Part shown: in pieces, positions 28,096-31,381 of the stretch
How the letters are laid out: each line of letters begins with the position of its first letter
Position numbering within the stretch: the stretch's first letter is position 1
Source: Nitrososphaerota archaeon
Lineage (GTDB): Archaea > Thermoproteota > Nitrososphaeria > Nitrososphaerales > Gagatemarchaeaceae
Assembly: GCA_027886885.1 (NCBI GenBank)
Contig: JAPCJP010000001.1
Coordinates: 1-64,000 of the forward strand
Direction: 5' to 3'
DNA: 64,000 bases
Translations under genes and position numbers: made by a program
The notes under the pieces: generated by a model
Databases searched by the model: none
Seen by the model: the letters and a program-made list of their open reading frames with translations, nothing else
Told to the model about the DNA's origin: nothing

Positions 28096-29031
28096 ATGGA
28101 GGATGGAGTCAGCAAGGTAGTGATAATTGGCTCGGGTCCCGCGGGGCTCACCGCAGGCATCTACTGCTCCCGGGCTGGGCTGGAGCCGGTGCTCTACATG
28201 GGGTCGAAGTACGGCGGGCAGCTCATGGTCACGAGCGAGGTCGAGAACTTCCCAGGTTTCAGGGACCCCATCCTTGGCCCGGAGCTGATGGACCAGATGA
28301 AGACGCAGGCGGAGCGACTCGGGACCAAGCTCATCCAAGACGACGTGACAGAGGTGGACCTTCGCTCCTACCCCTTCGTCATAAGGACCGCATCCGAGGA
28401 GAGACGCGCGCTGAGCCTCATCATCGCGAGCGGGGCAAACCCTCGGCGCCTGAACCTCGAGTCCGAGATGAGGCTCATGGGCAGGGGGGTTTCAAACTGC
28501 GCGGTCTGTGACGGTTTCTTCTTCAGGGGGAAGAAGCTCGCGGTCGTGGGCGGGGGAGACAGCGCCATGGAAGAAGCAACCTATCTGGCCAACCTGGCGA
28601 GCAGCGTGACCGTCATCCACAGACGTGACTCCCTGAAGGCCTCGCACATCATGCAGAAGGAGGCCTTCTCCGACCCCAAGATCAGCTTCATGTGGAACTC
28701 CGGGGTCACGGAGGTCATCGGCGAGAAGAAGGTGGAAGCCCTAAAGGTAAAGGACCTGAAGACCAACGAGGAGAGGGTCATCCCGTTCGACGGGCTGTTC
28801 GTCGCCATCGGCTACGACCCCAACACGAAGATTTTCGCCGGCCAGTTGGAGATGGACCAGAATGGCTACCTCATCGTGAAGGACGAGACGAAGTCGAGCA
28901 TCGAGGGGGTCTTCGTCGCAGGCGATGTCAAGGACTTTCTCTACAGGCAAGCGGTGACAGCTGCTTCCGACGGGTGCAAGGCCGCGATAGACGCGGAAAG
29001 GTTCCTGAAAGAGACCCAGGCTGCTAATTGA
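28096..29031 (+). CDS. trxB: Thioredoxin reductase
   Basis: A 311-residue FAD/NAD(P)H flavoprotein. The FAD loop is IIGSGPAGLTAGIY and the redox-active pair is CAVC (C135, C138). The NADPH loop is VVGGGDSAMEEA, and GVFVAGDV is the second FAD signature. It passes electrons to thioredoxin-type proteins. The length is normal. The 3' end overlaps the convergent radical-SAM gene by 8 nt. Confidence 0.93.
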   Translation: MEDGVSKVVIIGSGPAGLTAGIYCSRAGLEPVLYMGSKYGGQLMVTSEVENFPGFRDPILGPELMDQMKTQAERLGTKLIQDDVTEVDLRSYPFVIRTASEERRALSLIIASGANPRRLNLESEMRLMGRGVSNCAVCDGFFFRGKKLAVVGGGDSAMEEATYLANLASSVTVIHRRDSLKASHIMQKEAFSDPKISFMWNSGVTEVIGEKKVEALKVKDLKTNEERVIPFDGLFVAIGYDPNTKIFAGQLEMDQNGYLIVKDETKSSIEGVFVAGDVKDFLYRQAVTAASDGCKAAIDAERFLKETQAAN

Positions 29032-31174
29032 TTACCGGGACGAACCTTGTCTCGTTCGCCGACGAGCTGAGGGGTCCGACTACCGGTGTCTGGTAACCGC
29101 AGTCCTTGCAGCGGTTCTTGGCGTCCAGATTGTAAGCGCCAATCGAGTAGCCGCTTCGCTCGATCAGAACCTTCCCGCACCCGGGGCAGTAGGTGTTCTC
29201 CGCCGGGTGCCCCGGGACGTTCCCGATGTAGACGTACCTCAGCCCCGCCTCCCTCGCCACTCTGTGATGCGCCTCCAGGGTCTTGACCGGGGTGACCGGG
29301 ATGTCCATCATCTTGTAGTCAGGGTGGAAGCGGAGGAAGTGGATTGGCGTGTCCGGGCCAAGTTTGTCGTAGACCCAGCTAGCAAGCTTCCTGGCGCTCT
29401 CCAGGTCGTCTCCCACCCCCGGCACTATCAGGTCCGTTATCTCGGTGTGGATCCTGGTCTTCTCCTTCACCTGTAACAGCGTCTGGAAGATCGGCTCCGC
29501 GTTGGGGATACCGATGAACTTCCTTACGAACCCCGTCTCGCCGCTCCCCTTGAAGTCCACGGTCAAGCAGTCCAGAAACTGGCCCATGGCGTCGACCGCC
29601 TCCGGGGTATCGTAGCCGTTCGAGACAAAGATGTTGAAGATTCCCTTTTCGTGGGCGACCCTGCCGACATCCCTCGCATACTCGATGAATATCGAGGGCT
29701 CGTTGTACGTGTAGGCCATCCCTTGGCAACCGTATCCGGCCGCCAGGTCCGCCACCTGCGCCGGCGAGAGCTCCTCTCCCTCCACCTTCCTCCTCTGGCT
29801 GATCTCGGAGTTCTGGCAATACCTGCAATTGTGGACAAGAATTCCATCTGCAACATAGTTGTGATCCGGGATGGTCTCAAGTCCGTAAACGGTCTCCGCC
29901 CTACCTGTTGGCTTCACTGACTTGACTTGGACCCAGTACCGCATATTCTGCATCGGAGGCTTGGCGAGCCGCTCGAGTATGAGCTTCTTCACTTCGTCCG
30001 GGTGATTATGGAGGCACGACCCAGAGATTCTGAGGGTCTCCCAACCGTTCGCCTTCAAGGTCTCGTTTCTCACGATGTCTGACGCCTTCACGTCATCGTT
30101 GTTGAAGTGCCACCAGCCATCGACTTCTATGTCGAGTTTGGCCGCCAGCAAGGCAGCGTCCGCGATGTAGGATGGTCTAGATGACGCCGACCTGACTTTC
30201 ACGAGAATCCTATACTCGCGCTCATATTGGACTCCGATTTCGTCGAGAAGCGCGTAGAGGAGGAGCTGTGAATTTGACGGACGTTCGTGCAACCATCGTC
30301 TCATTCTCTCAACGTTTCTGTTCCAACCATGTGTCGGGTCGACAAGGTATCTTGCTTTGCTTGAGGCAATTGCTCTGGCGGCGACCGAAGGGTCGCTCAT
30401 GGGGTTGTGCTCCATCCGCTGACTGTACCTGGCCCGGAGTTCCTGTGATTTCACGAGCCCTTTGGTGTAACATCTTCCTCGGTGCCTATTCCATTCGACC
30501 ATGCCATCGAGCGACTCTCCGCACTTACCACAAACAAATCGACGGGTCTTCATCGCCTCAGCCTGTTTTACTAGCCGAGACTCGGTGACCTGATTCCATA
30601 CTCTTAGAATCTTATCTCCAACCTTGAGTTCACTCGCGGGTCTCCAGCCGTCCTTCGTTAGGACCGGGTGCTCTGCGGTAAGAAGTAGCCTACCATGCGA
30701 GTGGTTCCCGAAGCGTATTTCCCACACCTCTGCACTTCTCGTCGCCGTATGCGTGACGATGTTGGGATGAATTTCCATTCCGTCGCCGAGATCGTACGAC
30801 CAAAGGCTGTCCCCTTTGATGATTTCCTCGACGTTCTTGGTTTTGCCGTCCGCCATCAATATCTTCACGCCAGAAGGATGGCACAGCCAGTTGCAACCGG
30901 TGGTCGCTATGGAGAAGATCTTCGAACCTGGCCTGTAATGTATTACGGGCTTTTTCTCGATGGGGTCTATCTGCCCGGCGATTATCTTGCCGTAGTTGAG
31001 GAGGTAGAGCTCTCCTTTCACCACGCCCCTGATGCCGCACAGCCCGACCTGCCCTTCCCCAATCTGACACCCTCTGGCACACGCCGTGCACTGTACTCGA
31101 CCGCTCCCAAGGACTCGGAAAAGCTCTGCCTTCTTGCCGGTAGCCTCGAGCAGCCTTGGGGGCGGAGAAGACAT
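29024..31174 (-). CDS. AmmeMemoRadiSam-system radical SAM enzyme, intein-containing precursor
   Basis: A 716-residue precursor, about 364 after splicing. The N-terminus has VQCTACARGCQIGEGQVGLCG, the family's first Cys cluster. The radical-SAM motif is split: TTGCNWL precedes the intein and CRYCQNSEISQ follows it, restoring CxxxCxxC. A C-terminal zinc ribbon, CPGCGK and CKDCGY, is also typical. Related proteins (pyruvate formate-lyase-activase-like) sit with AmmeMemo partners; their reaction is not settled. The start is ATG 31174, matched by a GATAAAAG element at about 31198-31206; ATG 31183 is also possible. Confidence 0.88.
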   Translation of the reverse strand: MSSPPPRLLEATGKKAELFRVLGSGRVQCTACARGCQIGEGQVGLCGIRGVVKGELYLLNYGKIIAGQIDPIEKKPVIHYRPGSKIFSIATTGCNWLCHPSGVKILMADGKTKNVEEIIKGDSLWSYDLGDGMEIHPNIVTHTATRSAEVWEIRFGNHSHGRLLLTAEHPVLTKDGWRPASELKVGDKILRVWNQVTESRLVKQAEAMKTRRFVCGKCGESLDGMVEWNRHRGRCYTKGLVKSQELRARYSQRMEHNPMSDPSVAARAIASSKARYLVDPTHGWNRNVERMRRWLHERPSNSQLLLYALLDEIGVQYEREYRILVKVRSASSRPSYIADAALLAAKLDIEVDGWWHFNNDDVKASDIVRNETLKANGWETLRISGSCLHNHPDEVKKLILERLAKPPMQNMRYWVQVKSVKPTGRAETVYGLETIPDHNYVADGILVHNCRYCQNSEISQRRKVEGEELSPAQVADLAAGYGCQGMAYTYNEPSIFIEYARDVGRVAHEKGIFNIFVSNGYDTPEAVDAMGQFLDCLTVDFKGSGETGFVRKFIGIPNAEPIFQTLLQVKEKTRIHTEITDLIVPGVGDDLESARKLASWVYDKLGPDTPIHFLRFHPDYKMMDIPVTPVKTLEAHHRVAREAGLRYVYIGNVPGHPAENTYCPGCGKVLIERSGYSIGAYNLDAKNRCKDCGYQTPVVGPLSSSANETRFVPVIN
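29828..30883 (-). mobile_element. Intein with a Vsr-like (EDxHD) nuclease and a zinc finger
   Basis: 352 residues. Splice block A starts at Cys (CHPSGVKILMADGK) and block B is TAEHPVLT. Blocks F and G are VYGLETIPDHNYVADG and ILVHN, with Cys as the +1 residue. Between them lie a zinc-finger-like CGKCGESLDGMVEWNRHRG segment and a Vsr/DUF559-type nuclease core (IADAALLAAKLDIEVDGWWH, then NDDVKASDIVR and GWETLRIS). No LAGLIDADG helices are seen. The +1 Cys is a ligand of the host's radical-SAM cluster, so the enzyme cannot bind its cluster until splicing. Confidence 0.85.
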
Positions 31175-31381
31175 CGAGAACAAAACGCTCTCACGCTCTT
31201 TTATCCTTTCATGGGTGGGAGGAATCCTCGCCAGCCTAGGACCCTCCTGGGCTAGCCCTACAGAACATGGAATATTTGCAACACTGCCCCCGTCCGTTGC
31301 CCTGTTTGTCCGTGCGTTCTAGCTAGGAGAACGCCCGTTCGGTTGCGTAGGATTATCATCTCTTCTCCACACCCATTGCCC

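Follow-up and report, generated by a model that had tools for sequence, protein, structure and literature searches.

The CxxxCxxC motif of an AmmeMemoRadiSam enzyme, which would bind the [4Fe-4S] cluster of this radical-SAM protein, is, on comparison of its sequences among relatives, a two-site intein hotspot. In the window (the whole stretch of 64,000 nucleotides analysed here), the original prediction had placed an intein at 29828-30883 exactly within this motif, and the 352-residue in-frame translation, the matches to both intein and enzyme profiles, and the existence of intein-free alleles bear this out; at the level of sequence, the element is confirmed as a real intein, well placed in the Fe-S cluster motif. 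A single intein of this type is a known sort of element, and the novelty lies in the two-site hotspot with twin inteins three residues apart. Our preferred reading, to which we assign a probability of about 0.87, is that the window element is a homing class 1 intein that would have to splice itself out before the cluster can form.

Results

The gene and its intein. The amrS-like gene with its intein occupies 29024-31183 on the reverse strand and encodes 719 amino acids from a TTG start as listed. Removal of residues 101-452 leaves a 367-amino-acid AmmeMemoRadiSam enzyme, and the joined exteins belong to TIGR04337, the AmmeMemoRadiSam system radical SAM enzyme, with 312.7 bits compared to a curated cut-off of 220 (E 2.6e-93); the ORF also matches the Radical_SAM domain (PF04055, E 1.1e-12). 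The N-extein (residues 1-100; 30884-31183, reverse strand) ends in TTGCNWL and the C-extein (residues 101-367 of the spliced protein; 29027-29827, reverse strand) starts with CRYCQN, and the predicted flanks, GCNWL and CRYCQN, are thus read exactly as claimed. On splicing, the motif would be restored as C97-NWL-C101-RY-C104 (CNWLCRYC). Cys97 (codon 30893-30895, reverse strand) is the first ligand and lies at position -4 to the intein; Cys101 (29825-29827, reverse strand) is both the second ligand and the +1 splicing nucleophile, the double role that had been predicted for it; and Cys104 (29816-29818, reverse strand) is the third ligand, which doubles in relatives as +1 residue for a second intein. 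The same genome encodes a Memo partner on another contig (C10; PF01875, E 7.8e-75). The window's genome, which is a draft and 73% complete, yielded only a single AmrS copy, as did G061-G069, so that no intein-free backup was seen there. A thioredoxin reductase gene (28096-29031, forward strand; TIGR01292) converges on the amrS-like gene, with an end overlap of 8 bp, and a trxB homologue adjoins amrS in more than 20 related genomes.

The intein itself (CHPSGV...GILVHN; reverse strand) runs from Cys1 (codon 30881-30883, reverse strand) to His351-Asn352 and lies in frame precisely between CNWL and CRYC. Pfam Intein_splicing spans its residues 8-352 (E 9.6e-17), and TIGR01443 matches its C-terminal splicing region. 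It has the features of a class 1 intein, i.e. Cys at position 1, a block B TxxH, and HN followed by Cys at +1; moreover, Cys1, the TxxH residues T69 and H72 (TAEH), H341, H351, and N352 are invariant among 13 aligned site-a inteins (site a being the insertion point before the second ligand). In an AlphaFold2 model (pLDDT 80), most of both splicing halves is confident, and the best PDB matches of the model are intein splicing domains with a Hint fold (e.g. 2in8, TMt 0.59, rmsd 1.8). Intein-free alleles from the same genus are uninterrupted (CNWLCRYC in L011 and CSWLCRYC in L012), and because they read straight through the motif they fix the splice junctions exactly. Many other genomes have an intein at the identical codon boundary; therefore, the position of the intein is not due to chance.

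We considered that the element could be a plain in-frame insert that stays in the protein for good, so that the radical-SAM enzyme would either carry an additional domain or be dead. The few members without key residues (Cys1 to Trp in L048; deletions in L131) fit this explanation, but it does not account for the invariant splicing residues, for a C-extein that starts with Cys every time, for the conservation of the exteins, for identical junctions held by several unrelated inteins, or for intein dN/dS values well below 1, indicating purifying selection, in most pairs compared. We regard it as barely credible. Instead, the intein and enzyme families, the invariant catalytic residues, the modelled Hint fold, and the intein-free alleles from within the genus and the order support the class 1 homing intein, while the incompleteness of the draft genome and the decay of some relatives (L048, L006/L034, L131, and L041) count against it.

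According to this class 1 mechanism, an acyl shift would begin with the attack of Cys1 on the Leu100 peptide bond, Cys101 would then take over the N-extein, and cyclisation of Asn352 followed by an S-to-N shift would join the exteins as CNWLCRYCQN. The [4Fe-4S] cluster would be bound by the complete CxxxCxxC only after splicing, making splicing an obligatory activation step, and the precursor would lack enzyme function.

The probable endonuclease insert. The original prediction did not include the zinc-finger/DUF559 endonuclease insert of the intein. This insert carries a C2HC zinc-finger-like motif (CGKCGESLDGMVEWNRHRGRC; intein residues 118-138; 30470-30532, reverse strand) and a DUF559/Vsr-like nuclease domain (intein residues 234-306; 29966-30184, reverse strand) with an EVDGWWH motif and a match to PF04480 (E 7.7e-08), which makes it a probable homing endonuclease. 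Of 13 site-a inteins of more than 300 residues that were read completely, 12 have the ExDG..H nuclease motif; in L041 the nuclease motif is broken. By Pfam match and motif resemblance, the insert looks like a Vsr-like/EDxHD homing endonuclease; the EDxHD family is described in PMC3943268. Like EDxHD, Vsr-like, and DUF559 endonucleases, it combines an ExDG..H motif with extra DNA-binding modules, whereas its placement derives from the Pfam match and motif and its cleavage activity is predicted. The nuclease would probably cut intein-free alleles at the conserved site, thereby spreading the intein. At the intein site, DNA conservation exceeds the average without standing out (rank 32 of 337 windows); taken by itself, it does not single out the motif and is not usable as proof of nuclease targeting.

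Two sites in relatives. The check suggested with the original prediction, a search of other AmmeMemoRadiSam proteins for inteins at the same point, was positive, and mapping of the exteins over every relative ORF revealed a second insertion point, site b, before Cys104. Among 90 distinct complete cases, 54 were empty, 17 had an intein at site a only, 14 at site b only, and five at both; two further twins were parsed after this count. No insertion before the first cluster ligand was seen among the relatives. Across Nitrososphaeria and Thermoplasmatota, each of the two sites has been occupied repeatedly, whether by mini-inteins or by inteins of the DUF559 or LAGLIDADG type. Site-a inteins have ~353 residues with DUF559 or ~174 residues without an endonuclease, with a few that have partly deleted inserts; site-b inteins have 399-470 residues, LAGLIDADG-like where scanned (PF14528), or ~181-196 residues, and end in VSN or VAN, lacking the usual His. 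A site-a intein is likewise present in L137 (G004:C32), a second and divergent AmrS paralogue, with its DUF559 nuclease reduced to a remnant. In a sample of 243 Thermoplasmatota genomes, 150 of which had an AmrS match, an intein-split AmrS was present only in G061 among the matches listed. None of the fetched inteins from the window's genus interrupts a CxxxCxxC motif apart from the AmrS case, and searches of viral contigs, phages, and plasmids returned no close relative of the window intein and no viral vector.

The intein pattern is sporadic. On an extein tree with 90 rows, we counted at least 24 changes of intein state, and neighbours on the tree differ (L074 with both inteins next to L092 with none; L129 with b next to L135 with both; L096 with both next to L134 with a). 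The DUF559 site-a inteins of the Thermoplasmatota L128 and L134 cluster with their Nitrososphaeria counterparts rather than with the mini-inteins that occupy this site in their own order, a grouping that points to intein transfer between the phyla in either direction. Similarly, between L026 and L029, dS is 0.010 for the shared site-b intein vs 0.17 for the C-exteins, a sign of recent transfer. The rapid gain and loss together with near-identical hosts that are intein-free fit a selfish element.

Some individual alleles deserve mention in their own right. In L048 (806-808), a site-a mini-intein has Trp (TGG) in place of Cys1 and is otherwise intact, and it may be dead, use an unusual splicing route, or reflect a sequence error. 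In L006/L034 (G025:C25), an AmrS with a site-a intein has an in-frame TAG in the C-extein, and this allele may be broken. In the window's genome, an intein was also found in an apparent Mrp/NBP35-type ATPase (G000:C80; L002 and L140; DLPPG/C...HN/TGD, with slashes marking splice junctions), the family being assigned by motif. Mrp/NBP35-type ATPases are a protein family linked to Fe-S carriage. The window's genus is intein-rich, with five to 22 Intein_splicing matches per genome in G001-G007 and several ORFs of more than 2000 residues that hold many; a published survey reported one intein in 18 Thaumarchaeota genomes (PMC10643990).

Twin inteins. The most unexpected feature of the hotspot is the twin arrangement. 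The Thermoplasmatota order of G061 comprised 37 genomes, 25 of which have the closer AmrS type. Nine of these 25 have both inteins (G061, G062, G063, G064, G065, G312, G323, G328, and G335), five have a only, one has a with b unreadable at a contig end, five have b only, and five are empty; two of the twin readings are partial, because G065 is on two contigs and G323 begins inside intein a. Because the twin assemblies come from several different studies, a single assembly error is an unlikely cause. A junction query of 400 genomes of the class Nitrososphaeria returned site-a or site-b inteins and no twin; accordingly, among the genomes searched, twins were confined to a single order of Thermoplasmatota. 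Wherever the inner junctions are readable on one contig, the extein between the twins is exactly the three residues CRY (HN/CRY/C), and the site-a intein is a mini-intein in every completely read twin. For the L072/L074 pair, we obtained dN/dS ratios of 0.18 (intein a), 0.15 (intein b), and 0.014 (C-extein), and dS was almost the same throughout, at 0.48-0.50; these values suggest joint inheritance of the two inteins and purifying selection on both. In L131 (G328:C154), the twins are shortened by deletions to 141 and 137 residues, the second without block B, and the allele is decayed or misassembled.

Two Hint domains just three residues apart, with Cys1 and Asn/Cys+1 also at the outer junctions, could in principle leave as one composite unit in which intein a, CRY, and intein b are excised together, cut at the N-junction of a and at the C-junction of b. 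We consider this very unlikely because the product, CNWLCQN, would be one cluster ligand short, and both the preserved inner junctions and the purifying selection on each of the L072/L074 inteins speak for two separate inteins. An AlphaFold2 model of the L096 twin precursor had a pLDDT of 60 and was too weak to judge the packing of the Hint domains.

Possible gating of splicing. The original prediction held that the motif is broken until the intein is excised. It is correct that the intein interrupts the motif; however, as read from the sequence, the intein Cys1 occupies the register of the displaced ligand (C97-x3-Cys1 at site a), and the site-b precursor retains C-x3-C-x2-Cys1, which looks like a complete motif in which the intein nucleophile stands in for the third ligand. 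If this site-b motif binds metal, splicing would be blocked for as long as the metal stays. We also considered that the intein is redox- or metal-gated, such that clustered precursor cysteines (Cys-4, Cys1, the +1 Cys, and Cys104 at site a; Cys-3 and Cys1 at site b) engage in a disulfide or in metal binding and halt splicing until conditions suit an oxygen-sensitive Fe-S enzyme. The support for such gating is by analogy. According to the accounts in PMC10663303 and PMC3922620, a Cys-3/Cys1 disulfide blocks splicing of the intein in the radical-SAM enzyme MoaA of Pyrococcus abyssi under oxidising conditions; Cys-3 and Cys1 are present in every site-b case, and zinc is reported as an inhibitor of inteins. 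On the other hand, these cysteines are required by the enzyme in any case, so finding them conserved does not speak for regulation; the window site has Cys at -4 (CNWL/C), whereas the tested trap has Cys at -3, as found at site b in relatives; and the rapid turnover and intein-free near-identical hosts argue against a needed switch. Redox or metal gating of splicing, which the original prediction had raised along with sensitivity to oxygen, is possible, but we think it unlikely. More doubtful still is an extended version in which Cys1 mimics the displaced ligand, the Hint fold places the +1 Cys and the remaining ligand nearby, the precursor binds Fe-S or Zn or forms a disulfide via the splicing nucleophiles and so gates splicing, and the twins are chemically coupled because the +1 Cys of the first intein is Cys-3 of the second.

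Discussion

The original prediction emphasised the direct use of a cluster ligand as the splicing nucleophile. The sequence predicts this for the window gene, but it is not unique to it. In NF038136, which describes an intein-containing Rv2578c-family radical SAM protein, the intein also lies in CxxxCxxC and the window protein matches the model from Cys1 to Cys+1, whereas that intein corresponds to site b and the host family is a different one. The intein-free homologues L118 and L120 have their third Cys at position 76 of the NF038136 profile, where the intein of the model starts, suggesting that the Rv2578c-family intein uses the third ligand as its +1 residue. The P. abyssi MoaA intein (Callahan et al. 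2011), as portrayed in reviews, resembles the window intein in its radical-SAM host and in a conserved N-extein Cys near Cys1, and differs in its enzyme and in its Cys-3 spacing, which fits site b and not site a of the window; from this spacing, we infer that it probably precedes the third ligand. By these sequence comparisons, a ligand acting as nucleophile is a recurring feature of radical-SAM inteins and not peculiar to the window gene.

In the literature searched, we found no precedent for an insertion before the second ligand or for both sites together, and no description of inteins in the AmmeMemoRadiSam enzyme family or of inteins this close to each other, although absence there is not proof. 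The haloarchaeal MCM-a/MCM-d double inteins (PMC10643990) are comparable in that two neighbouring inteins occur sporadically in one gene and move independently, while the AmrS pair lies three residues apart inside one metal-binding motif.

The twins show how short a natural extein between two inteins can be, which is useful for protein engineering, and they pose the puzzle of how two homing sites separated by nine base pairs can be occupied at once. More generally, the hotspot makes an old question testable, namely whether inteins reside in catalytic motifs solely because these are conserved and not easily lost, or whether they also serve as switches. It offers a small system for this purpose: one Fe-S motif with two independent sites, three endonuclease states (DUF559, LAGLIDADG, and none), matched empty alleles among close relatives, and natural twins with their three-residue extein.
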